Origin: Solidesulfovibrio magneticus RS-1
Lineage (GTDB): Bacteria > Desulfobacterota > Desulfovibrionia > Desulfovibrionales > Desulfovibrionaceae
Assembly (NCBI RefSeq): GCF_000010665.1
Contig: NC_012796.1
Location: 4,302,001 to 4,366,000 of the forward strand
DNA length: 64,000 nt
Direction: 5' to 3'
Shown piece after piece: positions 1,134-45,971 of this stretch. The number at the start of each line of letters is the position of its first letter. Position 1 is the stretch's first letter. A program made the position numbers and the translations under genes. The notes beneath the pieces were generated by a model, which was not told the origin of the DNA, did not search any database, and saw nothing but the letters and a program-made list of their open reading frames with translations.

Positions 1134-1469
1134 AGGCCGGCATCGCCTCCAATGCCAAACGCCGCCCCGGAGCGATCCGAGACGGCGTTGCTGTTTTGGG
1201 GGACAGGAAGAACAGCCGAGAACCAGTTTGTTCTTTATCGCTTGCCGCGCAACCAGACGGCACAAGGGTGTCGGGGGCAGCATTGCCCCTGGCCAGGACG
1301 CCGGCCGCCGGGGCAGCACCAACAGCCGCCCCAGGCTATGCCGGCAACCAGCCTGTCCCGGCCCACAACCGCCCCCTACCAACGCCCTTTTAAGCAACTT
1401 TTCTCATTACAGGGGTCCGGGGGGATCATCCCCCCGGCCGCCGGAGGCATCCTCCATCTTCCCCCTGCC
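1134..1469. other. intergenic region between convergent genes, no gene
   Basis: No convincing coding sequence. It holds a weak hairpin (AACGCCG / CGGCGTT, 1158-1189) behind the cytidylyltransferase gene and one copy of the GC-rich 3'-end repeat at 1412-1452 behind cobT. Long frames here on both strands are compositional artefacts of high G+C. Confidence 0.6.
1412..1452 (-). repeat. 3'-end hairpin repeat, copy 1 (after cobT)
   Basis: Read on the minus strand, the element begins GATGCCTCCGGCGGCC 17 nt after the cobT stop. An 8-bp CCGGGGGG / CCCCCCGG stem follows. It belongs to a dispersed family of at least 11 copies in this window and probably acts at transcript 3' ends. Confidence 0.8.
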
Positions 1470-2534
1470 CTACCCTTCGCTCACGCCGGCCGAGGCGAAG
1501 GTCGCCATATCATTATAGATATTGCAGGCCGAGCGCATGAGGAACAGGGCCAGGGCCGCGCCGGTGCCTTCGCCCAGGCGCAGGCCAAGATCGAGCAGCG
1601 GCTTTTGGCCCAGGGCGGCCATGATCGGGGCGTAGCCCGGCTCGGCCGAGGCGTGGCTGACGACGGCGTAGTCGGCGACTGTCGGGCAGATGGCCCGGGC
1701 GGCCACGTAGGCGGCGGTGGAGATGAAGCCGTCCACGGCGATGGGCAGCCGGCAGGCAGCCGCGCCGATGACCAGACCGGCCAGGCAGGCGATTTCCAGC
1801 CCGCCCAGACAGGCCAGGACAGCCACCGGGTCGCCGCCGGCCACGACGTCCGCGTGCAGGGCAAGCCCCTTGGCCACGATGGCCGCCTTGCGGCCCACGC
1901 CCCCGGCGTCCAGGCCCGTGCCCGGGCCGGTGATCTCGGCCGGGGAAAGGCCGAGATAGGCGCAGAAAAGCGCGGTGGACGGCGTGGTGTTGGCGATGCC
2001 CATGTCGCCGGTGCCAAGAGCCCGCACGCCTTCGGCGGCGGCGGCCTCGGCCAGGGACACGCCAAGCAGCAGCGCGCTCTCGCACTGCTCCCGGGTCATG
2101 GCCGGGGCCTCGGCCAGATTGGCCGTGCCCGAGGCCACCCGCGCGCCGGCGAACCGGGGATGGGGGGCGAAGGGATCGCCCAGACAGCCGGCGTCCACCA
2201 CCCGCAAATCGATGCCGGCCGTGGCGGCCAGGACGTTGATGCCCGCGCCGCCGGCCAGAAAATTGGCCACCATCTGGCGGGTGACTTCCTGGGGAAACAG
2301 GCTCACGCCCTCGGCGGCCACGCCGTGGTCGCCGGCGCAGACGTAGATGCGGGCCGGGTCCACGACGGGTTTGGCCCCGCCGCCGATGACGAACAGCCGG
2401 GCCGCCAGTTCTTCCAGGCGGCCCAGGCTGCCGCGTGGCTTGGTGAGGTTGTCGAGATGGGCCTTGGCCACGGGAAAAAGCGACTGGTCCACCGGCCGCA
2501 CGGCGGCCAGGACCTCGGACAGAACGCGGGACAT
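1470..2534 (-). CDS. cobT: nicotinate-nucleotide--dimethylbenzimidazole phosphoribosyltransferase
   Basis: Makes alpha-ribazole phosphate from nicotinate mononucleotide and 5,6-dimethylbenzimidazole for the lower ligand of cobalamin. At 354 residues it has the normal CobT length. Family-typical segments include LTKPRGSLGRLEELA near residue 30, the G-rich stretch AGGAGINVLAA, and LGTGDMGIANTTPS near the middle. The ATG at 2534 is preceded by AAAAGGAGTCTCC, a good ribosome binding site; longer upstream readings run through a hairpin and are not real. It lies 85 bp downstream of the BNR lipoprotein gene, with a terminator-like hairpin between, so it may have its own promoter. No other cobalamin gene and no B12 riboswitch is visible nearby. 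Confidence 0.93.
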   Translation of the reverse strand: MSRVLSEVLAAVRPVDQSLFPVAKAHLDNLTKPRGSLGRLEELAARLFVIGGGAKPVVDPARIYVCAGDHGVAAEGVSLFPQEVTRQMVANFLAGGAGINVLAATAGIDLRVVDAGCLGDPFAPHPRFAGARVASGTANLAEAPAMTREQCESALLLGVSLAEAAAAEGVRALGTGDMGIANTTPSTALFCAYLGLSPAEITGPGTGLDAGGVGRKAAIVAKGLALHADVVAGGDPVAVLACLGGLEIACLAGLVIGAAACRLPIAVDGFISTAAYVAARAICPTVADYAVVSHASAEPGYAPIMAALGQKPLLDLGLRLGEGTGAALALFLMRSACNIYNDMATFASAGVSEG

Positions 2535-2563
2535 GGAGACTCCTTTTGGGGATGCAAAAGCCG

Positions 2564-2593
2564 GGCGGCCGGAAGGATCGCCTTCCGGCCGCC
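2564..2593 (-). terminator. hairpin terminator after the BNR lipoprotein gene
   Basis: Perfect 13-bp inverted repeat GGCGGCCGGAAGG / CCTTCCGGCCGCC with a 4-nt loop. On the minus strand it is followed by CGGCTTTTGC, a short T-tract. It separates the BNR lipoprotein gene from cobT. Confidence 0.6.
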
Positions 2594-2619
2594 GATGCTG
2601 CCCGTGCCGGGTGCGGACG

Positions 2620-5244
2620 TCAATTTTGCAGCAACAGCAAATCCACGGCCGGGCCGGCGGCCGTCTTGGCCGGAAGATTGACATGCCAGACGCCCCGGCC
2701 GTGGGTGAAGGCGTACAGCCGTTTGGACTGGGATTCAACCACCAGGGACTCGGTAATGACGTTGGCGAAGCCGGTGTTTTCCACGGCCCAGCTGCCCCCG
2801 CCGTCGAGGCTGGCGAAGACGCCGAGGTCCGTGCCGACGTAGAGGCGTTTGCGATTGTTGGGATCGACCACCGGGGCGAAGGTCGGCACGTCGGGCAGGG
2901 CTGTTGCGCCCGAGCCGGTGATGGTGGTCCAGGTCACGCCGCGGTCCGTGGACTTGCGCACATGGGCCTGACCAAAGTTGGAGCAGGTCATGTAGAGGAT
3001 GTTGGAATCGCCCGGGTCGAAAGCCAGGCCGGAAACCTGGCCGGCAACCGGCGTGGAGCTGGTCCAGGTAGGCAGGCTGCCGGTCTGCTGGCCGTTTGTG
3101 GTGACGTACACATACCCGTTGCTCGTGCCCACGGCCACGATGTTGGCGTTGCCCGGGGCCACGGCCAGGGCACTGACCGTGCCGCTGCCGGCCATATCGT
3201 TGCTGGCCTGGGTCCAGGTGGCCGCGCCGTCGGTGGTGCGCCAGACCTTGCGGCCGCCGAGCCACAGGGTGTTGGGATTGTTGGAGTCCATAAGAAAGGG
3301 CGTGATGAAGGGAAAGGTGTTTGAGGCGTCGGTGATGCCGGTGGTGGCGGCGCTGAAGTTCGCGCCGCCGTCGGTGGATTTTTGCAGACTCAGGTTGGTG
3401 TATTCGCCGTAGAGGATGTTGGTGTTTTGCGGATTGACGGCCACGGCCCCGCCGTCGCCGCCCATAAGCGAGGTCCAGGCGTTGGCTCCGGCGGCGATGG
3501 TTCCCCGGGTGGTGCCGTTGTCCTGGGCTCCGCCGAAAAAGGTCCCCCCGCCCGGGTAGACCGCGCCATAGTAGTACTGGGTGATGCCCAGGCCATTGTT
3601 GAGGCTCACCCAGGCGACCTGGGAAGATGAGTCGGAGCAGGTCTGGGTGGTGACGCCGGCTTGGGCGTCGTCGGTACGATACAGCCCGCCGTCGTTGCCG
3701 CTGTAGAGAATCTTGTTGCTGCCGCCGTTATAGTCGGGATGAAAGACCAGCACATGGTGGTCGGCATGGTTGTAGGCGGCCTTGCTCGTATTGGCCCACC
3801 ACACCGAGGCCATGCCCCAGCTCGTCCCGCCGTTGTCCGAGCGAAATAGGTCGATGCCGCCGACCCAGACCATGTTGGCATTGGTCGGGTCCACGGCGAT
3901 GACGTTGTCGTACCAGCCCTGGTTGGCCAGGGTGGTCAGCGTGCCCTCGCACTGGGAGCAAAAAGCCGAGCAGACGTTGGTCAGCAGCATGTTGGAAAGC
4001 ACGTCGGTCCCGGAGTTGGTGTAGGCCGCCACCCAGGTCGCGCCGCCGTCGACGGACTTGTAGACAGCAAACAAACCGTTTTCCCATTTGGTCTTGGCGT
4101 TGGTGGAGGCCAGGGCGTACATGACGCTCTGGTCGCTCTTGGCCACGGCCAGGGAGGTGCGGTCCATGTTGGCGACGCTGAGCACGTTCGACCAGTTCTG
4201 GCCGTTGTCGGTAGTGCGGTAGACAATGGCGGCGCTGCCTGGGGCCATGTACGTGCCGCAGGAAGCCACCACCACGTCGGCGCTGGTCACGTCGGTGCGC
4301 ACCACCATGTCGGTGCAGCCGTTTACACTCTCGGCGTCCACCTTGCGGGTGAAGCTGGCACCGGCGTCGGTGGAGACGTAGATGCCCTTGCGCGTGGCGG
4401 CGTAGACCCGGTTGGAGTCGTTGGGGCTCACCACGATCTTGTTGACGTAATAAAAATCTTCGTTGCCCGTGGAGGCCAGCTGGCTCCAACTCGTGCCGGC
4501 GTTGGTCGACTTGAAGATGCCGGCCCCGCGCACGGCGTCCACGTTGTAGTAGCCTTCGCCGGTGCCGGCGTAGAGGATGCTGCTGTTTTTGGGGTCCATG
4601 GCCATGGAGCACACAGCCAGATTGGACAAGAGATCGGTCAGCGGCGTCCAGGTCGTGCCGCTGTTGACGGTCTTCCAGACGCCGCCGGCCACGCCGCCGA
4701 GGTACATGGTGGCCGGGGTGGCCGGATCGATAAGCAAGGAACGCACCCGCCCGCCCACATTGCCCGGCCCCACGCCCGTCCAGCGGCCAAGGGCCTGGCC
4801 AAAGGGCGCGTCGGCCTTGGCATCGGCGGCGGAGACAAGTTTGTCGGCTTGGGTGGAAAAGACCGGCATGGCCTGCATGGCCTGCATGGCCTCGACATAG
4901 CGCTGGACCGGAATGGCGGTCTGGCCCACGGGAGCGCGTTTCTCGGCAAAAAAGATTTGGGCTTCCCGGGGCTTGTCAAAGCTCTTCTTGGGCTTGGCCC
5001 GTTTGCGCTCCATGATCTTGGCCAGGCGGGCCGCCTCGGCCTGGGGATCGAGGGCGGCCAGTTTCTTGGCCTCGGAAATCCCCGGCTTGAAGGCCGGCTC
5101 AGGTGCAGGCGCGGCGGTCTGGGCGGCGGGCTTGGCCGCCGGGACCGGCCCCTCGCCCTGGCTGCAGCCCCAAAGTCCGAGCGCCGCGCAGCCGGCGAGC
5201 ATCAACCAAACAAAGCATGGCCACCTAAGACGTCGACGAGGCAT
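2620..5244 (-). CDS. secreted lipoprotein with BNR / sortilin-type propeller repeats
   Basis: A large exported protein (874 residues). The N-terminus is basic (MPRRRLRW), then hydrophobic, with lipobox candidates LAGC (Cys19) and LWGC (Cys27), so an outer-membrane or surface lipoprotein is likely. Residues to about 120 are Ala/Pro-rich linker. From about residue 155 to the end there are many BNR/Asp-box blades: GGVAGGVWKTVNSGTTW, STNAGTSWSQL, STDAGASFTRK, STDGGANFSA, SLDGGGSWAVE. Such repeats build sialidase- or Vps10-like beta-propellers, which bind or hydrolyse glycans or simply scaffold. I see no catalytic residues that fix an enzymatic role. Neighbours (pfk, cobT) give no functional hint. 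The exact function is unknown. Confidence 0.8.
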   Translation of the reverse strand: MPRRRLRWPCFVWLMLAGCAALGLWGCSQGEGPVPAAKPAAQTAAPAPEPAFKPGISEAKKLAALDPQAEAARLAKIMERKRAKPKKSFDKPREAQIFFAEKRAPVGQTAIPVQRYVEAMQAMQAMPVFSTQADKLVSAADAKADAPFGQALGRWTGVGPGNVGGRVRSLLIDPATPATMYLGGVAGGVWKTVNSGTTWTPLTDLLSNLAVCSMAMDPKNSSILYAGTGEGYYNVDAVRGAGIFKSTNAGTSWSQLASTGNEDFYYVNKIVVSPNDSNRVYAATRKGIYVSTDAGASFTRKVDAESVNGCTDMVVRTDVTSADVVVASCGTYMAPGSAAIVYRTTDNGQNWSNVLSVANMDRTSLAVAKSDQSVMYALASTNAKTKWENGLFAVYKSVDGGATWVAAYTNSGTDVLSNMLLTNVCSAFCSQCEGTLTTLANQGWYDNVIAVDPTNANMVWVGGIDLFRSDNGGTSWGMASVWWANTSKAAYNHADHHVLVFHPDYNGGSNKILYSGNDGGLYRTDDAQAGVTTQTCSDSSSQVAWVSLNNGLGITQYYYGAVYPGGGTFFGGAQDNGTTRGTIAAGANAWTSLMGGDGGAVAVNPQNTNILYGEYTNLSLQKSTDGGANFSAATTGITDASNTFPFITPFLMDSNNPNTLWLGGRKVWRTTDGAATWTQASNDMAGSGTVSALAVAPGNANIVAVGTSNGYVYVTTNGQQTGSLPTWTSSTPVAGQVSGLAFDPGDSNILYMTCSNFGQAHVRKSTDRGVTWTTITGSGATALPDVPTFAPVVDPNNRKRLYVGTDLGVFASLDGGGSWAVENTGFANVITESLVVESQSKRLYAFTHGRGVWHVNLPAKTAAGPAVDLLLLQN

Positions 5245-5402
5245 GGCCTCCCTCCCGGGTTGCAGGTTCTTGAAACGACCAAACCCTTCCCGCCGCCAAC
5301 GCCCCAGGGATGCCCTCGCCCGGGGCCTCGTGTCGCGCTCACGAAAAGCGCACAGGACATATCAAAGAAAAAAACTCTCGTATTTTTTTAAGGGACGCGG
5401 CA
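5245..5402. promoter_or_regulatory. pfk / BNR lipoprotein spacer with A7-T7 inverted repeat
   Basis: Both flanking genes are on the minus strand. Behind the pfk stop there is an AT-only inverted repeat, seven A then seven T around TACGAGAG (about 5365-5387). The promoter of the lipoprotein gene should lie here, but no clear -35/-10 pair stands out. Confidence 0.3.
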
Positions 5403-6731: not shown

Positions 6732-6821
6732 GAGGACTCCTTGCGGCACAAATACGCGTTGGGCGATTATTCCGGTCGTAGCCTTTTGCCCGGTTCCCGG
6801 CAACCGGCCCTGGGAGGCGTT

Positions 6822-7820: not shown

Positions 7821-7897
7821 AAGCGCCCCTTGCCTTTCGCGGCGAATTGTTGCTTACATTGGTAGGAAACAGTTCCCGTCCCAGGCAAGGAGTTCCC

Positions 7898-9322: not shown

Positions 9323-9324
9323 CC

Positions 9325-17046: not shown

Positions 17047-17052
17047 AATAGA

Positions 17053-17095
17053 GGGGGTCCGGGGGGCATCATGTCCCCCGGCCGCCGGAGGCATC
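17053..17095 (-). repeat. 3'-end hairpin repeat, copy 2
   Basis: On the minus strand GATGCCTCCGGCGGCC begins 6 nt after the stop of the epimerase gene at 17102. It continues into a GGGGGACATGATGCCCCCC hairpin. Same family as the copy at 1412. Confidence 0.8.
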
Positions 17096-17101: not shown

Positions 17102-18169
<1,068 letters not shown>

Positions 18170-20724: not shown

Positions 20725-20725
20725 A

Positions 20726-31790: not shown

Positions 31791-32237
31791 ATGGAAACCA
31801 TCCTGCTCAAAATCCTCGAAGTCCAAAACGAGATCCTCGCGGAAGTGCGGATGCTGCGCCAGGCCGTCACCCACGGCGCGCCCCTGGCCGCCCAGGCCGC
31901 CGCTCCCGCCAGCCAGCCCCTCACCGCCGCCGCGCCGCCGTCCGCGCCCGAACCCGCGCCGCAGGCCGCCTACACGCCCACCTTCGTGCCCGAGCCGGAA
32001 CCCGAGCCGCAACCCTACCTCGCGCCGCCGCAACAACAGCCCGGCGGGCGGCTCACCGTCAACGAACTGGCCGACCTCGGCGGCCAGTTCCTCGATCCCG
32101 GCCAGATGCCGCGCGGCAAGGTCAAAGCCGTGGACGCCTCGGACCTGAGCCACTCCATCCTCGACGACATCAAGGCGAAGAATAAAGCCAAGCGCAGCGC
32201 GTTTGCCGAATTCGAGAAGTTTGATCGATTTAAGTAG
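31791..32237 (+). CDS. hypothetical protein with Pro/Ala-rich linker
   Basis: 148 residues. An amphipathic N-terminal helix (METILLKILEVQNEILAEV), a low-complexity Pro/Ala/Glu segment from about residue 30 to 85, and a charged C-terminal part (RLTVNELADLGGQFLDPGQ, then a Lys-rich tail). No known domain, signal peptide or membrane segment. It is followed within 26 nt by a 3'-end repeat copy, which marks the gene end and supports expression. Confidence 0.6.
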   Translation: METILLKILEVQNEILAEVRMLRQAVTHGAPLAAQAAAPASQPLTAAAPPSAPEPAPQAAYTPTFVPEPEPEPQPYLAPPQQQPGGRLTVNELADLGGQFLDPGQMPRGKVKAVDASDLSHSILDDIKAKNKAKRSAFAEFEKFDRFK

Positions 32238-32262: not shown

Positions 32263-32365
32263 GATGCCTCCGGCGGCCGGGGGGCTCAGCCCCCCGGACC
32301 CCCGACATGGGGGGACGGTCGGCGGGGGTGAGGCGATGGTCGGCGGGCGGTTGGCCCGAGAGAGA
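32263..32365 (+). repeat. 3'-end hairpin repeat, copy 3, extended form
   Basis: GATGCCTCCGGCGGCC plus a CCGGGGGG-type hairpin (32263-32303) starts 26 nt after the stop at 32237. About 60 more bases (GGTCGGCGGGCGG... GGCCCGAGAGA) are shared with the copy at 42653, so the unit here is about 100 bp. Confidence 0.75.
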
Positions 32366-32592: not shown

Positions 32593-32639
32593 GGGGGTCC
32601 GGAGGGATTATCCCCCCGGCGGGTCACGGGCAGCGCCCT
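32593..32639 (-). repeat. 3'-end hairpin repeat, copy 4 (long-form fragment)
   Basis: Read on the minus strand it starts 2 nt after the exonuclease stop with AGGGCGCTGCCCGTGACCCG, then the GGGGGGATAATCC hairpin. It matches the long version within pspF but lacks the GCCTCCGGCGGC tail. Confidence 0.65.
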
Positions 32640-32641
32640 AG

Positions 32642-33484
32642 TTATGAACGATGATGATAGCGTTCGTGCCAGACGCGGCGCAGGACGGCGGGATCGGGGA
32701 TATGCGGATTTTGGCCTGGGCTGGGGATGTCCTGGCCGTAGGCGTCGGCGAAGGGGGTGTCTTCCAGCAGCCGATTGATGGCGTGGGCCAGCAGCACGGG
32801 CAGGGCCAGGACGTCGGCGGCGTTGTAGGCGAGCAGCGTTTCCAGGACGGCGGGATCGCCGTGGCGGGAGTATTCACGCCACAGCAGCACGGCCATGTAG
32901 CCATCGGCTCCGGCCAGATCGCCCCGGTCGATGCCGAAGTGTTCCTCGCTTTTTTTCAGCCCGCCCTTGATGCCGATACCGCATAGGACGTTTCGCAGGT
33001 CGATGTGGGCTTTGGGAAGTTTTGCGCCGAGGTGCGAGGTGAGCACCGGGGCGTCGAAGCAGCGGCCGTTGTAGGTGACCAGCACCTTGCTGGTCAGGAT
33101 GTCGCCGGTGAAGTCGTGGAGGTTTTGGCCGTGGGCGTAGGTGCGGGCGGCGTTTATGCCGTCGTAGAGGGCCACGGCGGTGACTTCGTTTTGGGGTGTG
33201 CCGTCGGTTTCGATATCGACGCAGGCCAGGCTGTCCTTGAAGTCGAAGAACAGCCTCCAGGCTTCGGCGGGCGGCAGGCGCTGAGCAAACCAGTCGGCGT
33301 CGCCGGCGGCCAGGCGTTCCTTGGATTCGAGGAGTTCGTTGCGCCACATGGGCGCCTTGGCCGAAGCCAGGGGCGGGGTGTCGGCGTCAAGGAAAGCGTC
33401 CCAGTCGCGGATGCCGGCGGCCCAGAGGCGGCGTTCGGTGGACGGCCCCAAGCCGGGCAGATGGAGGAAGGTATGGCGCAGCAC
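32642..33484 (-). CDS. ribonuclease H-like (YprB-type) exonuclease domain protein
   Basis: A 280-residue protein with an N-terminal helix-hairpin-helix-like stretch (HLPGLGPSTERRLWAAGI) and a DEDD-type 3'-5' exonuclease fold. The acidic residues are in CVDIETDG (ExoI), YNGRCFDAPVL (ExoII) and LLAYNAADVLALP (ExoIII). It probably trims nucleic acid; the substrate is unknown. The start is uncertain: GTG at 33484 matches the usual LRHTF opening, while a TTG 12 codons earlier is also possible; neither has a clear ribosome binding site. Confidence 0.8.
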   Translation of the reverse strand: MLRHTFLHLPGLGPSTERRLWAAGIRDWDAFLDADTPPLASAKAPMWRNELLESKERLAAGDADWFAQRLPPAEAWRLFFDFKDSLACVDIETDGTPQNEVTAVALYDGINAARTYAHGQNLHDFTGDILTSKVLVTYNGRCFDAPVLTSHLGAKLPKAHIDLRNVLCGIGIKGGLKKSEEHFGIDRGDLAGADGYMAVLLWREYSRHGDPAVLETLLAYNAADVLALPVLLAHAINRLLEDTPFADAYGQDIPSPGQNPHIPDPAVLRRVWHERYHHRS

Positions 33485-35448: not shown

Positions 35449-35477
35449 ACATGCGGCTCCGGACCGGAGCAGGCGGT

Positions 35478-37520
35478 CTAGGCCTTGGCCTCCCCCTCGC
35501 GCTGCATGTCGAGGACGAGCCCCTGCAAGGCCTTGGCCTGTCCGGCAAGGTTGTCCACGGCCGCCGACGACTCGCCCATGGCCTGGGCGGTTTCGCCGGA
35601 AATGCGGCTGACGCGGTCCACGGTGCGGCCGATTTCCTCGGCGGCGGCGGACTGTTCTTCGGCGGCGGTGGCGATGGAGCGTACCTGATCGGCCACAGCG
35701 TCGACAAGGCCGACGATGGAGGTCAGGGCCTCGCCGGAACGACGGGCCAGATCGGTGGCGGCTTCCACGCCTTCCACGGCCTTGTCGAAACCGGCGACGT
35801 TGCGCCGCGCGCCGTCCTGGATACCCTGGATGGCCGCGCCGACTTCCTTGGTGGCGGTCATGGTCTTTTCGGCCAGTTTTCGCACTTCGTCGGCCACCAC
35901 GGCAAATCCCCGGCCGGCGTCGCCGGCCCGGGCGGCCTCGATGGCGGCATTAAGGGCCAGGAGGTTGGTCTGGTCGGCGATGTCGGAAATGACTTCCATG
36001 ATGGCCCCGATGTTCTGGGCCTTCTGGCCCAGCGCCCCCATGTCGTCCTTGAGGCCCCGGGCCTGGTCGGCCACCTGGAAGATGCCGCGCACCACCTCGT
36101 CCACCACCGATGCGCCTTCCTCGGCCCGCTTGCGGGCGGCCTCGGCGGCATCGGCGGCCTCGGAAGCGTTTTTGGCCACCTCCAGCACCGTGGAATTGAG
36201 CTGCTCCATGGAGCCGGCGGCTTCGGCCACCTGGCGCGACTGGTCCTTAGCCCCCTGGGTGGACTGCTCGATCTGGGCGGCCAGCTGGTGGGAAGCGTTG
36301 GTCACGGCCTCGACCACGACCTCGATGCGTTCAGCGGCGTGGAGCATCCCTTCCATCTTGGCGGTTTCGGCCAGACGGCAGGCCTCGTCGGCCTTGGCCC
36401 GGTCGGCCTTGGCGCAAAGGGCCTCGGCTTCGGCCTGCTGCTTGGCGGCGGCGGCCTCGTCCATGCGGCAGCGGATGTCGCCGGCCATGGCGGTCAGGGC
36501 CTGGGCCAGAACGCCGGTCTCGTCGGCCCGGGAAACGACGAGCGCCCGGTCGGTCTCGCCCCGGGCCACGGCTCGGGCGAAGTCCATACAGGCCAAAAGC
36601 GGACGAACCAGCACCTTGGACAGCCACCAGGCCAGGGCGGCGAACAGGATCAGGCTGCCGAGACCGGCTAGGCCGATCTGCTTGATGATGGCGTCGCGGG
36701 CGGCCATGACCTGGGAAATGTCCACGCCGATAAAGACCATGCCGACGATGTTGCCGTCGTTTTTGAGCGGGGCGTAGGCGGTGCGGTAGAGGCGGCCGAA
36801 CAGGGTGTTCTCGCCCAGATAGGTTTTGCCCTGGCGCAGCACCGCATCGACGATGGCCTTGTTGTCGAGGGCGGTGCCCACGGCGCGTTTGCCGTCAACG
36901 ACCAGGGAGGTGGAGACGCGGGTGTCGCCGTAAAAAATGGTGGCTTCGGCTCCCAGGTCTTTTTTCACGCCGTCGACAAGGGTGCTGTTGTTGGAAAGGT
37001 CCTGGCCGACGATGACCACGCCGATGACGGCCCCGTCTTTTTTGATGGGCGCATAGGCGCGGATGGAAAAACGCACCGTGTTGCCGGATTCGAAAACCGA
37101 GCAGGGTTCGCCGGCCAGGGCGCGCTTGACGCCTTCCTGGTTGCCGATGTTGTCGCCGGCCTTGTCGTTATGCGCCCGGGCCAAGACGTCGGCCTTGGCG
37201 TTGGCGAAGACAACGAGGTCGGCCTTGCCGCCGGCCATGAGGGTTTGGCCGAGATCGCGCAGTTTGGCCGTGTCGCCGGCCAGGACGCCGTCGATGACGT
37301 TGGGACGCAAGGCCTGGGTCCGGGCCATGTCCGCGTAGACTTCCTTGTAGGATTCGATCTGGCGGTTGAGGACATGAAGATAGCTTTCGACCGCCTGGGC
37401 GGTGACGGCTTCGTAGCCGTCCTTGACGCTGGAGTAGGCCACGGCCTGGATGATGGCCACGGTGGCGACGACGGAAGCAATGACCAGGGCCATGATTTTG
37501 GCCGCGATGGAAACCCGCAT
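35478..37520 (-). CDS. methyl-accepting chemotaxis protein with Cache sensor domain
   Basis: 680 residues. TM1 about 8-28 ([18 protein letters not shown]). Periplasmic sensor about 30-290, similar to the single-Cache type of anaerobes ([40 protein letters not shown]). TM2 about 300-325, HAMP, then the kinase-control coiled coil with the hairpin tip [19 protein letters not shown] and [18 protein letters not shown]. The ligand is unknown; Cache domains bind small organic acids or amino acids. The ATG at 37520 has GAGGGGGACGTC upstream. The PspB-like and PspC genes follow closely on the same strand. Confidence 0.93.
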
Positions 37521-38019
37521 GACGTCCCCCTCGGTGTTTCCCAGCGGCCCGGCTGTCTCGACGACGGCCGTCGAGACCCGCGGCTTTCCGGACCTGCCTC
37601 GCGGCAGGGGTGGCGTTATTGGGCAAAATCCTCCTAGCAACGCCAGCGGACCGAAGCAAGAGACGTTTTATGTGTGTACTTTTTCCACAGTTACATGAGC
37701 CATGCGACGCCAATAGCCGAACCAGATGCCCGAACAAACCACCGATGCAACACGATAGTAATTAACCAAGAAAGCGTACAGCCGCTCCAGGATGCCTCCT
37801 CGCTCATCTGTGCCAAGAAATTATGCCCGCGCTGCGTCAACGTAGCATCAACACGCAATCATCCGAAGCCACCCGACACCAGGGCTTTCGCAACGCCCCG
37901 TGCGCCGGGGAGGATTCATGCCCGGGGCAATTGTTCCCATCTTCACCATATCAAGAATCACTATAGGCCAGGCGAACACCATCTTTGTTAAAAATCGCAC
38001 AAGAGACGTTTCCTCCCGC
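37521..38019. other. gene-free region between chemoreceptor and psp operon
   Basis: About 500 bp of lower G+C without a convincing gene. It lies upstream of the chemoreceptor gene (minus strand) and downstream of pspC, so it should hold the chemoreceptor promoter. I see no clear operator or terminator. Confidence 0.5.
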
Positions 38020-38626: not shown

Positions 38627-38694
38627 TGCTTGTCCTTTTGCAACAGCGTGTCCGTCTTGGGGCCGCGACGTTCCCCTTATGCCTTTTCCCAGGT

Positions 38695-38733
38695 GGGGGT
38701 TCTGGGGGCCTCAGGCCCCCAGCCACCGGAGGC
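38695..38733 (-). repeat. 3'-end hairpin repeat, copy 5 (after pspA)
   Basis: On the minus strand GCCTCCGGTGGCTGGGGGCC starts 13 nt after the pspA stop and forms a CTGGGGGCC / GGCCCCCAG hairpin. It separates pspA from pspBC and may lower pspBC expression relative to pspA. Confidence 0.75.
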
Positions 38734-38746
38734 CTCCCCCTCCGCC

Positions 38747-39427: not shown

Positions 39428-39468
39428 GGCGTTCCTCCTGGCGCGGCTGCGCCGTGATGGCTGCCGTA

Positions 39469-39485
39469 AAGCAGGGAGCGTGCCA
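39469..39485 (-). promoter_or_regulatory. sigma-54 promoter of the psp operon
   Basis: On the minus strand: TGGCACGCTCCCTGCTT, with GG and GC exactly 10 nt apart as in the -24/-12 consensus. The PspF-type activator is encoded divergently. The expected transcript start is near 39460, giving a leader of about 30 nt before pspA. Confidence 0.8.
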
Positions 39486-39593
39486 GATATTTTCTGTCGT
39501 ACTTTCAGGATGTTGCCCGAAATGACGAAGCAAGATCGTTGCAGTTATCGCCAGATACTGGTATTTTTCGCCACAAAACTGGAGAAAATCGCC

Positions 39594-40715
39594 ATGACGC
39601 CCGACGCTCCCTGGCTGGCCGAGGCCCTGGGCCAATCCGACGCCTTTCTGGCCTGCATGGAGGCCGTGGCCCAGGCCGCCGGCATCGACCGGCCGGCGCT
39701 CGTCGTGGGCGAGCGCGGCACGGGCAAGGAGCTGGCCGCCGCCCGGCTGCACTACCATTCCCCGCGCTGGGACCGCCCCTATGTGCCGGTCAATCTGGCC
39801 GCCTTGCCCCGAACGCTCATGGAATCCGAGCTGTTCGGCCATGAGGCCGGGGCTTTTACCGGCGCGGCGCGGCGTCGGGCCGGGCGCTTCGAGACAGCTG
39901 ACGGGGGGACGCTGTTTCTGGACGAACTCCACGCCGCGCCGGTGGCCGTCCAGGCCAAACTGCTGCGGGCGGTGGAATATGGGCTTATTGAGCGCATCGG
40001 GTCGAGCCAGCCCGTGGCCGTGGACGTGCGCATCGTGGCGGCGGTCAACGTCGATCCGCGTCGGCTCGTGGCCAAGGGCAGGCTCTTGCCCGATCTCCTG
40101 GACCGGCTGGCCTTTTGCGTGCTGGTCATGCCGCCCCTGCGCGAGCGCCATGGCGACATCCCGTACCTGGCCGAGCGGTTCGCCGCCCGGTTCGCCGCCC
40201 AGCTCGGCCGGCCCGAGCCGCCGACCTTTTCCCGGGCTGCCATGACCGCCCTTGCCGCCCACCCCTGGCCCGGCAACATCCGCGAACTCAAGACCGTGGT
40301 CGAACGCGCCGTGCTGGCCTGCCCCACCCCCCTTATCGACACGATCACCCTCGACCCTTTCGCCGCCCTGTCCCCCACCCGGGAGGTCCAGGAGGGGGTG
40401 ACCCCCTCCTGGCCGCCGGAGGCATCTACTGTTTCATCCACCCCTTCCCCCCATCCAGGGGGTTCGGGGGGGATGATCCCCCCCGACGGGTCCAGGGCAG
40501 CGCCCTGGCCGCCGGAGGCATCCCCATCTTCTCCCCTCCCCAACTTCACCGAAGCTGTCGCGTCCCTGGAAATCGCGCTGCTCGGCCGCGCCTTGGCGCG
40601 TTCGGGCGGCAACCAGCGCCGGGCGGCCGGGTTGCTCGGGCTTGGCTATCACCAGTTCCGGGGGCTGTACCGCAAGTATGCCGGCGCTCTTGACGCCGCG
40701 TCCAAAGCCCCGTAG
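39594..40715 (+). CDS. pspF: sigma-54-dependent activator PspF, with repeat-derived insertion
   Basis: 373 residues. AAA+ domain with VVGERGTGKELAA (Walker A), GHEAGAFTGA (the sigma-54 contact loop), GGTLFLDELHA (Walker B) and an arginine-finger region. There is no N-terminal receiver domain, as in PspF. A C-terminal Fis-type HTH has GGNQRRAAGLLGLGYHQFRG. Between AAA+ and HTH, at about residues 265-320, lies a Pro/Ser/Gly-rich stretch in which WPPEAS occurs twice; it is the translation of two copies of the dispersed hairpin repeat. The ATG at 39594 has GGAG 9 nt upstream. It activates the divergent pspABC promoter. Confidence 0.9.
   Translation: MTPDAPWLAEALGQSDAFLACMEAVAQAAGIDRPALVVGERGTGKELAAARLHYHSPRWDRPYVPVNLAALPRTLMESELFGHEAGAFTGAARRRAGRFETADGGTLFLDELHAAPVAVQAKLLRAVEYGLIERIGSSQPVAVDVRIVAAVNVDPRRLVAKGRLLPDLLDRLAFCVLVMPPLRERHGDIPYLAERFAARFAAQLGRPEPPTFSRAAMTALAAHPWPGNIRELKTVVERAVLACPTPLIDTITLDPFAALSPTREVQEGVTPSWPPEASTVSSTPSPHPGGSGGMIPPDGSRAAPWPPEASPSSPLPNFTEAVASLEIALLGRALARSGGNQRRAAGLLGLGYHQFRGLYRKYAGALDAASKAP
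40388..40426 (+). repeat. hairpin repeat inside pspF, copy 6a
   Basis: A CCAGGAGGGGGT / ACCCCCTCCTGG-type stem followed by the constant tail CCGCCGGAGGCATC. It is in frame in pspF and encodes part of the linker (WPPEAS). Confidence 0.85.
40458..40522 (+). repeat. hairpin repeat inside pspF, copy 6b (long form)
   Basis: GGGGGTTCGGGGGGGATGATCC, then CGGGTCCAGGGCAGCGCCCT, then GGCCGCCGGAGGCATC: the fullest copy in the window. It has two hairpins, a central G/C stem and CCAGGGC-AGC-GCCCTGG. In frame in pspF. Confidence 0.85.
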
Positions 40716-40724
40716 CCCCAGGCG

Positions 40725-41984
40725 ATGCGCCAAATCACCGAATCCGACAGCCGTATCCGCGCCGACAGGCTGCCTAACGGCGTCCGTATCGTCACCGAAC
40801 ACATGCCCGTTTCCAAAACCGCCAGCCTCGGCATCTGGATCGAGGCCGGTTCGCGCCACGAAGCCCCGGGTCAGGAAGGCATGGCCCATCTGATGGAGCA
40901 CATGGCTTTCAAGGGCACGGCCCGGCGCGACGCCCTGGCCATCGCCAAGGAACTTGACACCCTGGGCGGGCTTTCCAACGCGTTTACCTCCCGCGAGGCC
41001 ACCTGTTTCCACGTGCGCGTCATGGACGCCCACTTGGCCCGGGCTTTCGACATTTTAAGCGACATCGTCTTGCGTCCGCTGCTTGATCCCGAGGAGCTGG
41101 CCCGGGAACAGGCCGTCATCCTGCAGGAAATCTCCATGGTCGAGGAGACGCCCGAGGAAAAAATCCACGAGGACTTCTGGGCCGCCGCCTGGGCCGATCC
41201 GGGGCTGGCCCATCCCATCACCGGCACGCCGCAGTCCGTGGGCGCGGTCACGGCCGAGGCCCTGGCTCAGTGGCGGCGCGCCGCTTACCATCCCGAGGCC
41301 ATCACCGTGGTCGCCGCCGGGGCCCTTGACCACGACGCCCTGGCCGAAATGGCCGAGGCCGCCTTCGGCTCGTTGCGAAAAATCCAGACCGCGCCCGCGC
41401 CGGCCGCCGGGGCCTACACGCCGCCGTACCTGGCCGAGCGCCGTGACTGGGAACAAAACCACGTCATCCTGTCCTACCCCTCGGTCGGCAACGTCAGCGC
41501 CGACCGCTTCGCCCATACCCTTTTGGCCACGCTGCTTGGCGGCAACATGTCCTCGCGGCTTTTCCAGGAAGTGCGGGAAAAACGCGGACTGGCCTACTCC
41601 ATCTACGCTGGCGTCAACGGCCTGGCCGACGTGGGGCTGCTGGAAATCCAGGCCGCCGTGGACCCGGACCGCACGGCCGAGCTGCTCTCGGTGGTCAACG
41701 CCGAACTGGCCGCCGTGGCCGACGGCGCGGTGACGGCCGAGGAACTCGACCACACCCGCGAACACTTGAAGGGCCTTTTATACCTCGGCGCGGAATCCAC
41801 CGAGAACCGCATGATGCGCCTGGCCCGCAACATCCTGCTGTTTAACCGCTCCATCCCGCTTGAGGAAACCGCCGCCTGCCTCGACGCCGTGACCCCGGAC
41901 GACATCGCCCGCACCGCCAAGGCGGCCTTTGCGCCGGGCAGCGCCGGATTGGCCGTCATGGGGCCGACTGCCGCCTTGCCCTAA
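40725..41984 (+). CDS. M16-family zinc metallopeptidase
   Basis: 419 residues. The inverted zinc motif HLMEH (in MAHLMEHMAFKGT) lies near residue 50, with the distal Glu about 75 residues later (LAREQAVILQEISMVEETPEE). The second half is the inactive M16 repeat (YSIYAGVNGLADVGLLEI). Similar to the processing-peptidase-like proteases of bacteria (PqqL/YmxG group), usually cytoplasmic or periplasmic; no signal peptide is seen. It follows pspF by 9 bp on the same strand, so may share its transcript. Confidence 0.9.
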   Translation: MRQITESDSRIRADRLPNGVRIVTEHMPVSKTASLGIWIEAGSRHEAPGQEGMAHLMEHMAFKGTARRDALAIAKELDTLGGLSNAFTSREATCFHVRVMDAHLARAFDILSDIVLRPLLDPEELAREQAVILQEISMVEETPEEKIHEDFWAAAWADPGLAHPITGTPQSVGAVTAEALAQWRRAAYHPEAITVVAAGALDHDALAEMAEAAFGSLRKIQTAPAPAAGAYTPPYLAERRDWEQNHVILSYPSVGNVSADRFAHTLLATLLGGNMSSRLFQEVREKRGLAYSIYAGVNGLADVGLLEIQAAVDPDRTAELLSVVNAELAAVADGAVTAEELDHTREHLKGLLYLGAESTENRMMRLARNILLFNRSIPLEETAACLDAVTPDDIARTAKAAFAPGSAGLAVMGPTAALP

Positions 41985-42082
41985 GCCCGGCGGTGCTTCG
42001 AAAACACGCCGGTCTTCTTGCAGCGTTCGGTATCGCAACAGGAAACCGCCCGTCCCAAGACCATGCCCCGGAGGTGTTCCCC

Positions 42083-42652
42083 ATGCCCGGACACGCCGCC
42101 TACGACATCGGCCCAGGAAGCCTTCGCCTCATCGAAGGCGACATCACCGTCGATGACGCCGACGCCATCGTCAACGCCGCCAACTCGGCCCTGGCCGGCG
42201 GCGGCGGCGTGGACGGGGCCATCCACCGCGCCGCCGGCCCGAAACTGCCCGCAGCCTGCCGCGACATCATCGCCCGCATCGGCAGCCTGCCGGCCGGCGG
42301 CGCGGTCATCACTCCCGGCTTCGAGCTGCCCGCCCGCCACATCATCCACACCGTCGGCCCCATCTGGCGCGGCGGCGAGACGGGCGAACCCGAAGCCCTG
42401 CGCTCGGCTTACGCCCAGTCCATCAACCGGGCCGTGGAACACGGCCTGACCACCGTCGCCTTCCCGGCCGTGTCCACCGGCGTCTACGGTTTCCCCGTCC
42501 ACCTGGCCGCGCCCATCGCCCTTGGCGTTATGGCCGAGGCGTTAAGGGGCGGAAGACTGCGCGAAGTGCGCATGTACCTGCACGGCACGGCAGCTTTCGG
42601 GGTCTGGCGCTCGGCGGCGGATGCGTTATTTGGCGGGAACGCGGGAGAGTAG
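42083..42652 (+). CDS. macrodomain protein, O-acetyl-ADP-ribose deacetylase-like
   Basis: 189-residue stand-alone macrodomain (YmdB/MacroD type). [34 protein letters not shown] is the signature region with the Asn and Asp that bind ADP-ribose; later [13 protein letters not shown] forms the phosphate loop. It removes ADP-ribose or acetyl-ADP-ribose adducts. GGAGG precedes the ATG at 42083. A 3'-end repeat starts at the base after its stop codon. Confidence 0.9.
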
Positions 42653-42752
42653 GATGCCTCCGGCGGCCGGGGGGCTCAGCCCCCCGGACCCCCGACCTGG
42701 GGACGGTCGTGCGGAGGGGGGATGGTCGGCGGGCGGCAGGCCCGAGAGAAGA
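42653..42752 (+). repeat. 3'-end hairpin repeat, copy 7, extended form
   Basis: GATGCCTCCGGCGGCC starts immediately after the macrodomain stop; the hairpin runs to 42693. The following 60 bases resemble those behind the copy at 32263. Confidence 0.8.
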
Positions 42753-42819
42753 TTTTCGGCTGATACGACCCATAGTTGGTGAAAAGTACACCCCCCCATT
42801 GAAAGTTTTTGGGGAGGAT

Positions 42820-42885
42820 GGGGGTCTGGGGGAAGGAACCCTTTTTTTCAAAAAAGGGTTCCTTCCCCCAGCCGCCGGAGGCAAA
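42820..42885 (+). repeat. hairpin repeat, copy 8, forming the hslV leader
   Basis: CTGGGGGAAGGAACCC (42826-42841) pairs with GGGTTCCTTCCCCCAG (42856-42871). The stem extends through T and A runs around a tiny loop. The constant tail CCGCCGGAGGC follows, and its GGAGG lies 10 nt before the hslV ATG. Confidence 0.85.
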
Positions 42886-42891
42886 CTCACG

Positions 42892-43437
42892 ATGCAACTA
42901 CGTGGAACGACGATTGTGGCGGTGCGGACCGAGGCCGGCGTGGCCGTGGCCGGCGACGGGCAGGTGACGTTGGGCCAGGCCATTGCCGTCAAGCATACCG
43001 CGCGCAAGGTGCGCCGGATGTACAAGGACAAGGTCGTCATCGGCTTTGCCGGGGCCACGGCCGACGCCTTCACGCTTTTCGAGCGCTTCGAGGCCAAGCT
43101 GGAGGAATTCGGCGGCAACCTCGTGCGCGCCTCGGTGGAGCTGGCCAAGGATTGGCGCAAAGACAAGTATTTACGGCGTCTGGAGGCCATGATGATCGTG
43201 GCCGACGCCGGCAATGTGTTGATTTTATCCGGCACGGGCGACGTCATCGAGCCCGACGACGGCGTGGCCGCCATTGGTTCCGGCGGCCCCTACGCCATGG
43301 CCGCCGCCCGGGCGCTGTTGCGCAACACCGAACTGTCGGCCCGGGAGATCGTGGAAAAATCCATGGCCATCGCCGCCGAGATGTGCGTCTACACCAACGA
43401 CCAGTTGGTGGTGGAGACGCTGGAAAAGCCTGCTTAA
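42892..43437 (+). CDS. hslV: ATP-dependent protease proteolytic subunit HslV
   Basis: 181-residue N-terminal-threonine protease, the core of the HslUV proteasome-like machine. MQLRG is presumably removed to expose Thr6 in [36 protein letters not shown] follows, as in the family. The start is fixed by the catalytic Thr and by GGAGG 10 nt upstream, which is part of a hairpin-repeat copy. hslU follows after 88 bp. Confidence 0.95.
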
Positions 43438-43525
43438 TTGCGTATCGTAGAAGAAGAATGGTTTTCGTGGCTTGCCAGCGAAAGCGCCAAGGCGCTTTTC
43501 GCGGACGCCGCAGCAAGGAGCACCC

Positions 43526-44899
43526 ATGCACGCCAGCCTGACGCCGCGTGAAATCGTTTCGGAACTCGACAAATACATCATCGGCCAGCGCGACGCCAAG
43601 CGCATGGTGGCCATCGCCATGCGCAACCGCTGGCGTCGCCAGCAGATCGAGCCGGTCTTGCGCGACGAGATCGCGCCCAAAAACATCATCATGATCGGCC
43701 CCACGGGCGTGGGCAAGACCGAGATCGCCCGGCGGCTGGCGCGGCTGGCCGGGTCGCCTTTTTTCAAGGTCGAAGCCACCAAGTTCACCGAGGTCGGTTA
43801 TGTCGGGCGCGACGTGGAATCCATGGTGCGCGACCTCATGGAAATCGGCGTCAACCTCGTGCGCCAGGAAGAACTGGAGCGGGTGCGGGTCAAGGCCGAG
43901 AAGGCCGCCGAGGAACGCCTGCTTGATTTGCTCCTGCCCGAATCCCAGCGTCCGGCCCACGGCCCCATCCCCATGCCGGCCGCCATCGAGGCCCCGGCCG
44001 AGCCGGCCGGCGAGCAAGGGCTGACCACCCGCGACAAGCTGCGCAAGCTGTGGCGCGAGGGCAAGCTCGACGACCGCATGGTGCCCGTGGAGGTGTCCAT
44101 GCCCTCGCCCCAGGTGGAGATCATGTCCATGCCGGGCATGGAAGAGATGGGCAGCCAGTTCAAGGACCTGTTCTCCAAGGCCTTTCCCCAGCGCAAGAAG
44201 ACCAAGACCATGCGGGTGCGCGAGGCCTACGAGGTGATCCTGCAGGAGGAGTCCGACCGGCTGGTGGACATGGACAAGGTTTCCGAGACGGCCCGGGAGC
44301 GCGTGGAACAGACCGGCATCATCTTTATCGACGAGATCGACAAGATCTGCGGCAGGCAGGGCGGCGGCCAGGGGCCGGACGTGTCCCGCGAGGGCGTGCA
44401 GCGCGACCTCTTGCCCGTGGTCGAAGGCTGCGTGGTCAACACCAAGTACGGCATGGTCAAGACCGACCATATTCTGTTCATCGCCGCCGGCGCGTTCCAC
44501 TTCTCCAAGCCCTCCGACCTCGTGCCGGAGCTGCAAGGCCGGTTTCCCCTGCGCGTGGAGCTGCGGGCGCTGACGGCCGAGGATTTCCACCGCATCCTCA
44601 CCGAGCCGCAAAACGCGCTCACCGTGCAGTACAAGGCCCTGCTCGCCACCGAGAACGTGACCCTGGAATTCACCGATGAGGCGCTGCGGGAAGTGGCCCA
44701 GTTCGCCCAGCGTATCAACGCGGACACCGAGAATATCGGAGCCAGGCGGCTTTACACCATCATGGAAAAGATTCTATCCGACCTGTCCTTTGCCGCCTCG
44801 GACCAGGGCGGCCAAACCGTGGTCGTGGACCCGGCCTACGTGCGCGAAAAGCTCGCCGACGTGGCCGAGGACCGGGATTTGTCCCGGTACATTCTCTAA
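43526..44899 (+). CDS. hslU: ATP-dependent protease ATPase subunit HslU
   Basis: 457-residue AAA+ unfoldase for Hsl[18 protein letters not shown] at the start, [15 protein letters not shown] (Walker A), an I domain of about 110 residues, [12 protein letters not shown] (Walker B), and a C-terminal sensor-2 region ending in the conserved LSRYIL that docks into HslV. The length is typical. AAGGAG precedes the ATG. The argB gene starts 17 bp after the stop. Confidence 0.96.
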
Positions 44900-44916
44900 T
44901 CTCCCGGGGAGCGACA

Positions 44917-45810
44917 ATGAACCGCGAACACGCCAAGGCGCATCTGCTGCTGGAGGCCCTGCCCTACATCCGCAATTTCTACGGCCAGACCGTGGTCATC
45001 AAATACGGCGGCCACGCCATGGTCGATGAACAGTTGCAGGAAAGCTTCGCCTTAAACGTCATCCTGCTCAAATACATCGGCATCAACCCCGTCATCGTCC
45101 ACGGCGGCGGCCCGCAGATCGGCCGGATGCTTAAGCTGCTGAACATCGAAAGCCAGTTCAAACAAGGCCTTCGCGTCACCGACGACGCCACCATGGACGT
45201 GGTCGAGATGGTGCTCGTGGGCAAGGTCAACAAAAACATCGTCAACCTGATCAACCTCAAAGGCGGCTCGGCCGTGGGCCTGTCCGGCAAGGACGGCCGG
45301 CTCATCACCGCCCGCAAGCTCGAAATGGTGCTGGAACGCGGCGACGCCCCGCCCGAAATCATCGACCTCGGCAAGGTCGGCGAAGTGACCGGCATCAACA
45401 CCCAGCTCATCACCACGCTCCTTGCCCAGGGATTCATCCCGGTCATCGCGCCAGTGGGCGTCGACGAAGACGGCGAGACCTACAACATCAACGCCGACAC
45501 CGTGGCCGGAGCCGTAGCCGCCGCCCTCGGGGCCAAGCGCCTGGTGCTTTTAACCGACGTTTCCGGCGTCCTGGACAAGGACAAGACGCTCATCTCGTCG
45601 CTGGACATCAAGGAAGCCTCCCAGGCCATGGCCGACGGCGTGCTGGTCGGCGGCATGATCCCCAAGGTCAGCTGCTGCATGGAAGCCGTGGACGCGGGCG
45701 TGGAAAAAGCCCACATCCTCGACGGCCGCGTCGAGAACTGCATCATCCTGGAACTGTTCACCCGCTCCGGCATCGGCACCGAAATCGTGTGCAAGCGGTG
45801 CCAGGCGTAG
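44917..45810 (+). CDS. argB: acetylglutamate kinase
   Basis: 297 residues, second step of arginine synthesis (phosphorylates N-acetylglutamate). [10 protein letters not shown] near residue 28, VHGGGPQIG near 62, and [16 protein letters not shown] near 245 are ArgB signatures. The N-terminal helix ([17 protein letters not shown]) is of the kind found in the arginine-feedback-sensitive hexameric form. It is the third gene of the hslV-hslU-argB unit, followed by a 3'-end repeat and then a terminator hairpin. Confidence 0.95.
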
Positions 45811-45826
45811 GGGAAAAGAATATAAA

Positions 45827-45870
45827 GATGCCTCCGGCGGCCGGGGGGGATAATCCCCCCCGGACCCCCT
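45827..45870 (+). repeat. 3'-end hairpin repeat, copy 9 (after argB)
   Basis: GATGCCTCCGGCGGCC starts 16 nt after the argB stop, then GGGGGGGATAATCCCCCCC, then GGACCCCC. Same family as the copy at 1412. Confidence 0.8.
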
Positions 45871-45885
45871 TGATGAGCGAGATTT

Positions 45886-45917
45886 AACGGGGACAACGTT
45901 GTAACGTCGTCCCCGTT
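45886..45917 (+). terminator. terminator of the hslVU-argB transcript
   Basis: AACGGGGAC / GTCCCCGTT with an inner ACGTT / AACGT stem and one mismatch, followed by TCGTCTTT. It lies between two repeat copies. Confidence 0.6.
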
Positions 45918-45937
45918 TCGTCTTTCAGGAGGGATTC

Positions 45938-45971
45938 CAAAGGGGTCACCCCTTTGGCCGCCGGAGGCATC
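45938..45971 (-). repeat. 3'-end hairpin repeat, copy 10 (after the flavodoxin-like gene)
   Basis: Minus strand: GATGCCTCCGGCGGCC begins 34 nt after the stop at 46006. The stem here is CCAAAGGGG / CCCCTTTGG, different in sequence from other copies but still fully paired. Confidence 0.8.

Follow-up and report, generated by a model that had tools for sequence, protein, structure and literature searches.

The window, that is, the whole stretch of 64,000 nucleotides analysed here (C2:4302001-4366000, contig NC_012796.1 of Solidesulfovibrio magneticus RS-1), contains repeated copies of a short element that mostly sits just behind stop codons. Read from 5' to 3', its anatomy consists of the stop codon, about 10-30 nt of purine-rich leader, a near-invariant 11-letter tag GCCTCCGGCGG leading into a GC hairpin (5' arm X, short loop, 3' arm X'), a turn GGA, and a tail. 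The hairpin is usually perfect, and the tail matches X, with C opposite G and T (less often A) opposite A. A preliminary description had reported at least 11 copies in this window, and a hairpin element was indeed present at all 11 places, with 8 exact tags, 2 variant tags and, at 32593, an untagged array:

1409..1451, minus strand: element; tag 1438-1451, hairpin 1417-1437 (CCGGGGGGA/TGA), tail 1409-1416; 18 nt past the gene end at 1470.
17051..17095, minus strand: element; tag 17082-17095, hairpin 17059-17081, tail 17051-17058; 6 nt past the gene end at 17102; a GC hairpin comes next.
32263..32305, plus strand: element; tag 32263-32276, hairpin 32277-32297 (CCGGGGGGC/TCA), tail 32298-32305; 25 nt past the gene end at 32237.
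32593..32641, minus strand: untagged array of hairpin and tail units behind the gene ending at 32642; arrays lie at the same place in relatives G397 (longer) and G401.
38694..38736, minus strand: variant-tag element (GCCTCCGGTGG); tag 38723-38736, hairpin 38702-38722, tail 38694-38701; 10 nt past a PspA-like gene.
40380..40426, minus strand: element antisense in the coding linker of a sigma-54 activator gene; tag 40413-40426, hairpin 40388-40412 (CCAGGAGGGGG/TCA), tail ACCTCCCG 40380-40387.
40458..40522, minus strand: second antisense element in the same linker; tag 40509-40522, hairpin 40492-40508 (CCAGGGC/GCT), tail ACCCG, followed by an untagged GGGGGGGATCATCCCCCCC unit.
42653..42695, plus strand: element right after (0 nt) the stop codon of a macro-domain gene; tag 42653-42666, hairpin 42667-42687, tail 42688-42695.
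42818..42885, minus strand: long-stem element (21 bp stem); tag 42872-42885, hairpin 42826-42871, tail ACCCCCAT 42818-42825; antisense, ahead of the start of a PF00227 proteasome-subunit gene.
45827..45871, plus strand: element; tag 45827-45840, hairpin 45841-45863 (CCGGGGGGGA/TAA), tail 45864-45871; 16 nt past an amino-acid-kinase gene.
45929..45971, minus strand: element; tag 45958-45971, hairpin 45937-45957 (CCAAAGGGG/TGA), tail AATCCCTC 45929-45936; 34 nt past a flavodoxin-fold gene.

The exact 16-mer GATGCCTCCGGCGGCC occurs in eight of these copies (1436, 17080, 32263, 40411, 40507, 42653, 45827, 45956) and a form with 3 mismatches at 38721 and 42870; at up to 3 mismatches, the window gives 22 matches against 3.98 expected. 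Eight of the eleven had been said to start 0-35 nt past a stop codon, which agrees with the distances listed above for seven elements and with the place of the untagged array. The three exceptions are the two copies inside the sigma-54 activator gene (40411, 40507) and the one before the PF00227 gene (42870), all antisense. The 45827 and 45929 elements face each other and share a terminator-like hairpin (45864-45936) between convergent genes; at L062:15860-15960, facing elements of convergent genes likewise flank a shared terminator-like hairpin.

The genome comprises 5,315,620 bases, 5,248,049 of them in C2. The host sample consisted of the window and 80 chromosome-wide stretches of 20 kb (1.664 Mb, about a third of the genome), and genes were called with our own script, not with a published caller. 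When up to 3 mismatches were allowed, this sample yielded a count of 308 for the true tag and of 79-170 for ten permuted tags; therefore, only a strict set was used, in which a 12-nt tag with at most one mismatch (123 exact) precedes a hairpin of at least 6 bp, giving 132 host copies. The 13-mer GCCTCCGGCGGCC occurs 272 times in the whole host genome, against 2 for the backward-read pattern. A perfect hairpin of at least 6 bp follows at once after 111 of the 132 exact 11-nt tags of the sample. When the place was shifted in six different ways, the counts were 10, 2, 0, 0, 0 and 0 (out of 131 or 132 in each case). The same holds for other species on stretches fetched by place, where a hairpin follows 79 of 116 tags and 2 of 111 shifted places.

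Among tag copies with a hairpin of at least 7 bp, 184 are exact and 11 have one mismatch. None of these 11 changes, admittedly a small number, touches TCCGG, and thus the kept part is not CCTCC as a unit. This is relevant to a further proposal of the preliminary description, namely that the CCTCC of the tag pairs with Shine-Dalgarno GGAGG sites. CCTCC does lie within the tag, and the leader is purine-rich. However, the whole 11-letter tag is kept, and at the 40507 site it is retained in 8 of 8 relatives antisense inside a gene, whose mRNA would not carry CCUCC. We found no positive evidence for this pairing and regard it as hardly credible.

The place of the element is also far from random. 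Eleven of the 132 host copies overlap called genes and the remaining 121 are intergenic, of which 85 start at most 40 nt past a same-strand stop, against 6.1% at random intergenic placement. The upstream gene lies on the same strand for 94 of the 121 copies (median distance of the 94: 21 nt) and on the opposite strand for 25; among the 119 with a called upstream neighbour, 94 on the same strand compares with a null of 51%. The 14 nt ending two bases before the tag are 85% purine, compared with 47% in the first 14 nt past other stops. Where the gap between genes is at least 60 nt, 50 of 300 gene ends carry the element if convergent and 35 of 513 if codirectional; below 60 nt, where there is also little room, the counts are 0 of 58 and 1 of 431, respectively. 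No replication-strand bias was seen (plus/minus 35/37 and 28/32 by chromosome half). Against nulls of 7-9%, the rule recurs in four other Solidesulfovibrio (18/23), Desulfovibrio sp. DV (18/32), Oscillibacter (21/38), nDJH2bin10 (7/15) and Aminicenantes (5/12); in G397 the count is 5/6. Thus, the positional rule that had been proposed from the window alone extends over a third of the host genome and to other species. Such a position, together with the orientation and the near-absence from short gaps, is what one would expect of an ordinary 3'-end hairpin, acting as a terminator helper or exonuclease barrier and carrying a protein-binding tag, in which no triplex forms and the tail obeys some other constraint. 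Stem-loops generally gather at the 3' side of genes (PMC1590033, available in part), which also fits this explanation.

For the stem and tail, we collected 475 tags across genomes (461 distinct), leaving out those with fewer than 60 letters or an N behind the tag. A further 124 of the 475 had no perfect hairpin and were left out of the tail tests, so that 351 first-unit hairpins remained. In 39 equal-length copies, drawn from these 351 hairpins already found perfect, 7 of 9 pairs vary on both sides (shuffled mean 4.7; 8 of 500 shuffles as high). Their covariation score reaches 0.548, compared with 0.201 when shuffled, while further pair types are no commoner than in shuffled copies (9 vs 9.2). 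The covarying stem of the preliminary description is therefore borne out insofar as pairs change on both sides. It has to be amended since further pair types are not in excess, whole stems are swapped at orthologous sites (see below), and a third segment covaries too. Similarly, selection on a structure plus a fixed sequence agrees with the kept tag and with pairing far beyond chance, but not as covariation of two strands only. The tail, described as constant, is not: the sequence behind the hairpin follows the stem, and constancy applies only if the CCTCC-bearing tag was meant. RNA folding of three 91-nt stretches gave z-scores of -3.57, -1.53 and -0.76 and is not informative for a third strand.

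The copies sort into stem types, each with its own tail. After a leading A, found on 195 of 211 unique-unit tails, the tail is the complement of the 5' arm X written in the same direction, in other words the mirror image of the 3' arm. For example, AGGAGAGG arms go with ACCTCTCC tails, GGGAGGGG with ACCCTCCC, AGAGGG with ACTCCC, AAGGAGG with ATTCTCC, AAAGGG with AATCCC or AAACCC, and G-run arms with ACCCC... tails. When the 16 tails not starting with A were left out of the base tallies, C stood opposite G in 433 of 507 cases, and opposite A (133 cases) the tail had T 69, A 40, C 18 and G 6 times; codes with T only and with T or A fit about equally (z 7.0 and 6.6). Pyrimidine-arm units, such as those with CTTCCTTTTCT arms, were left out of the main tail tests. 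For 23 distinct mixed A/G arms, the parallel match was 4.65 of 6 places, against 3.38 (sd 0.17) with tails permuted (0 of 5000 permutations as good), and the antiparallel match was 3.96 against 3.56 (1/5000). For 16 arm types, which partly share ancestry and whose commonest tails were picked by hand, the parallel score was 72 against 49.4 (0/20000) and the antiparallel score 61 against 54.8 (212/20000). The rule was replicated in second hairpins, 58 of which stand behind the 351 first units: the 15 arms tested gave a parallel match of 4.20 against 3.11 (sd 0.23; 0/5000) and no antiparallel excess (3.40 vs 3.46; 3731/5000). Also, the G-run length of the arm correlates with the C-run length of the tail (rho 0.59, p 0.002, 25 distinct arms). 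Pairing of the tail with the next hairpin was not detected (395 of 500 permutations at least as good).

These data bear on two other explanations. The weak antiparallel excess of the first units could suggest that the tail is an alternative 3' arm, in a switch where X pairs antiparallel with either X' or the tail. However, the second units lack this excess, and AGAGGG arms match their ACTCCC tails antiparallel at only 3 of 6 places; we consider a switch very improbable. As for the ordinary 3'-end hairpin, a parallel match between tail and arm has no role in a simple hairpin, the match recurs in second units, and the tail is C-rich with no U-tract. We find this explanation unlikely, even though it accounts for the position. 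To our knowledge, no copying process makes a parallel complement; therefore, we infer that the tail rule reflects selection on a bundle of three strands (up, down, up).

Judging from their sequences, X, X' and the tail are laid out as an intrastrand triple helix would be. This layout is a known class (PIT/TM motifs), in which a purine arm, a pyrimidine arm and a 3' third strand make class III, and the complement makes class I (PMC4666352, available in part). In the classes of Holder et al. (2015), the element is class III (pyrimidine motif) on the transcript strand and class I (purine motif) on the template. The ITxF definition asks for three stems of 6-15 nt, loops of 1-6 nt, a triad code and at most one mismatch from 7 nt. 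Our triad criterion was modelled on it, without being the ITxF program, was class-I-like and allowed hairpin loops up to 9. Agreement was found for 33 of 107 host units and 121 of 227 others (repeats removed); shifting the tail window by 10 nt left 0 and 1. With the criterion coded in a second way, 35 of 107 and 155 of 227 units agreed, and 0 and 3 did so after the shift. The 227 others are the cleaned set; an earlier tally of 124/240 had included repeats of one place and some host loci. Tagged hairpins with a pyrimidine 5' arm (CTTCCTTTTCT, CTTACTTTTCT, CCCGCTTTTTT) were also observed in an Oscillibacter metagenome-assembled genome (MAG; L306, L308) and an Aminicenantes MAG (L295, L300, L303); their A-rich tails seem to mirror the arm with an offset and would be class II triplexes.

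The element has much in common with PIT/BoxC/TM-ECO as described in the available part of PMC4666352: three segments on one strand (purine arm, pyrimidine arm and mirror third strand), short loops, triads that are rich in G and admit T or A opposite A, and many copies that are mostly intergenic and patchy between close relatives. However, TM-ECO is class II, has one near-fixed sequence, and shows in that part neither a bias of strand orientation nor an outside tag. Our element has varying arms with the third strand following, an 11-nt outside tag and a purine leader, and it lies preferentially past stops and in one direction; the absence of orientation bias is thus not shared (94/119 on the same strand, as given above). 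The TM-ECO pattern CCCTCNCCC N3-6 GGGNGAGGG N3 GGGNGAGGG had 0 matches in the window and the 80 host stretches (1.66 Mb, both strands). On its sequence, then, the element would fall partly within the definition of an intrastrand triplex, but not within TM-ECO. The intrastrand triplex database of PMC4666352 covered 3173 genomes and may hold some of these units; the main text, as far as available, names neither Desulfovibrio nor Clostridia.

Our preferred reading is that of a tagged 3'-end element whose hairpin would be locked by a third strand and whose tag would be read by a partner, to which we give a probability of roughly 0.38. As a gene end is transcribed, the tag and hairpin would emerge and the short tail would fold back along the arm, the three strands forming a triplex at least transiently in the course of transcription. 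The locked hairpin might then halt or stall the polymerase, or it might give the mRNA a 3' end with its short tail tucked away, so that 3'-5' exonucleases could not load, and a protein or RNA partner would read the tag. Since the purine motif, unlike the pyrimidine motif, allows A opposite A, such places hint at the template strand of the DNA; the orientation relative to genes hints at transcription or the transcript. That the element ends transcription units by a triple helix, across phyla and with natural variation changing all three strands together, we propose only tentatively.

Several points weigh against this reading. Consecutive C+.G-C triads are unfavourable for RNA at neutral pH, and places with A opposite A suit the template strand of DNA better than they suit RNA. 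The C-run length of the tail follows the G-run length of the arm only loosely, most G5 arms having 6 C and G6 and G7 arms 4-6. About two thirds of the host units fail the triad criterion; the commonest host stems (GGGGGCC) allow about 5 triads and therefore fall below the 6-nt floor. The stop-codon rule was not seen in small samples from Alphaproteobacteria (0/4), Fundidesulfovibrio (0/2), Selenomonadaceae (2/8) and the relatives G405 and G399 together (2/4), and the copies that overlap called genes, like the two antisense in a coding linker, depart from it in the host. Only 15 of 40 sites of relatives with a host gene-end counterpart in the sample had the host tag, and two of these point to the same copy. 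Where convergent genes are at least 100 nt apart, a canonical terminator is found equally often whether or not the end carries the element (0.30 with it, 0.27 without; n 44, 204); therefore, the element is not simply 'the' terminator. Finally, E. coli PIT elements are reported, in the available part of PMC4666352, to have neither promoter nor terminator activity.

Terminators deserve a closer comparison. Like intrinsic (Rho-independent) terminators, the element is a GC hairpin soon past a stop codon at the end of transcription units, but its tail is C-rich without a U-tract, and a fixed tag stands ahead of the hairpin. From the element to 110 nt beyond, a canonical terminator was found for 15 of 132 elements. 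Among codirectional genes at least 100 nt apart, ends with the element have a canonical terminator less often (0.09) than ends lacking it (0.21; n 34, 364).

Comparison of orthologous sites showed that the tag can be retained while the stem is exchanged. At the 40507 site, where all 8 relatives keep the tag, the stem differs in six and the tails follow the stems; the first stems are AGGGC (G397, G401), GGGGGGA, AGGAGGGGA, AGGAGAGGC, AGGAGGGGG and AGGAGGGGC (G405, G399). Going by these sequences, we count the kept tag with differing stems as evidence that would point to selection. Of the 8 relatives, 6 also keep the tag at 38721 and 4 at 45827, and at each of these two places a further relative has it with a single change; 7 keep it at 42653 (one recognised by eye only, as the script asked one letter more) and 3 at 45956. 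No retention rate is given for 1436, 17080 and 32263, because the upstream flank was without a match in several relatives. The stem differs in 9 of the 15 shared sites, and the 6 same-stem cases come from genomes more than 94% identical at the gene. Whole stems thus appear to be swapped, not changed pair by pair. The loci of relatives were fetched by a CCTCCGGCGGCCAAAGGG pattern, and that stem is therefore over-represented. Two facing elements of UBA7700 (L185) correspond to a single fused palindrome of tag, hairpin and tag in the host (L066), suggestive of a deletion between palindromes. Homology past the tail is clear for about 30 nt in GGGGGCC copies, and a few share more.

The sigma-54 activator gene (39510-40715, plus strand) adjoins the PspA-like gene. 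In its product, the copies at 40388-40522 fall after the AAA+ lid (residues 211-283) and before the Fis-type helix-turn-helix (351-383). The linker before the Fis domain is largely made of two antisense element copies and has two WPPEAS motifs. Judged by blast-derived gaps, the linker lengths of relatives are multiples of three apart.

The element is very unevenly spread. Sixteen genomes, picked for holding the motif among the matches listed from a motif pattern search, were counted for the 13-mer. In other phyla, the counts (control in brackets) were 324 (0) in an Aminicenantes MAG of 10.4 Mb, 240 (2) in the Oscillibacter MAG, 66 (0) in Alphaproteobacteria UBA2562, 31 (1) in a Selenomonadaceae MAG and 22 (0) in D16-76. 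Desulfovibrio Ct408 had 166 (0) and Fundidesulfovibrio agrisoli 127 (3), and the lowest count of the 16 was 6. The 13-mer TGCCTCCGGCGGC was then counted in 395 genomes of the host phylum: the host had 257, five genomes of two sister genera 28-47 and one genome of another family 35, and no other was seen above 5. Of 245 genomes in the class to which the Oscillibacter MAG belongs, 19 match; apart from the MAG itself, they have 1-4 matches each, a level that the control also reaches. Element-bearing MAGs may hold contamination. In viral contigs the element is rare (17 stretches, several without an element by eye), plasmids gave one query-covering match and phages none; carriage on phages or plasmids thus has little support.

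This distribution could also be that of a miniature mobile or gene-conversion repeat of the REP type, with a tag read by an enzyme, which would settle behind stops as the least harmful place and use its hairpin and tail for its own copying. The patchy spread (240 exact 13-mers in one Oscillibacter MAG against 0-4 in the other 244 genomes of its class), the dozens to hundreds of copies in some genomes of other phyla, the few stem types that dominate the host, the copies that share sequence beyond the tail, the exchange of whole stems at orthologous sites and the coding-linker copies, which keep frame within the limits of the blast-derived gaps, all agree with such a repeat. However, some orthologous gene ends still have the tag in its position although their flanks can no longer be aligned, and viral, plasmid and phage matches are as scarce as just described. 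Likewise, the Y1 (PF01797) transposase had no match in 11 element-bearing genomes (G398, G405, G040, G408, G410, G411, G413, G416, G418, G419, G423), several of which are MAGs and may be incomplete. It was found in 9 of 21 genomes searched, including element-bearing G397, G277, G036, G409, G412, G414 and G422. In the host, a Y1 (IS200-like) transposase matched only in pieces, apparently broken (G000:C2:126492-126849 and C2:4653125-4655142). We consider the repeat explanation a serious one, if doubtful.

Rickettsia palindromic elements are palindromes inside coding sequence. The pair at 40388-40522 is like them by description, not by sequence, but here the intragenic case is the exception. Their CGTC tag is described in PMC3733652 (available in part). 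According to the same source, REP/BIME/RAYT are short extragenic palindromes with many copies, often behind genes, with facing pairs and subfamilies with compensating stem changes, as seen here; our element differs in its almost wholly variable arms, its third segment, and the absence of RAYT from the 11 genomes listed above. Near either end of 108 units, the REP end motifs GTAG and CGTC occurred 1 and 8 times, as raw counts without a chance expectation. A REP/RAYT origin is thus disfavoured by the few GTAG/CGTC ends and by the Y1 results. Rfam gave no match at the window elements. Its Clostridiales-2 family, which scored 25.2 of 58.6 bits on the other strand, was rejected after reading of the alignment; it has 37 sub-threshold places in the host and matches in 10 of 14 control genomes too.

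No description of the tag as a bacterial repeat was found in a full-text literature search (CCTCCGGCGGCC, CCTCCGGCGGC) and by keywords; most subscription journals lay outside its coverage, and the full-text matches were off-topic by title. What is new here is that the sequence after the hairpin changes with the stem, as its third segment. In the available part of PMC4666352, the E. coli motif folds in vitro, and in vivo footprinting did not support a stable triplex. If our preferred reading is true, the tail rule would constitute comparative (covariation) evidence, new as far as searched, for intrastrand triplexes selected, hence formed, in living bacteria. The natural stem variants, with the third strand following, could be converted into a direct mutational test in a bacterium. 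Also, a tag common to distant phyla, usually before such a hairpin and often past stops, points to a tag-reading factor or a way of spreading not yet known.

Two further features were observed. A second repeated palindrome with TTAAAAAATAC...GTATTTTTTAA arms lies behind genes, often after a GCGTC-like lead (L035, L038, L081 and a G407 stretch), and is unrelated to the tag of the element. In the window, a c-di-GMP-I riboswitch aptamer (37540-37624, minus strand; 42.8 bits against an Rfam cut-off of 35) lies directly upstream of the gene at 35478-37520.

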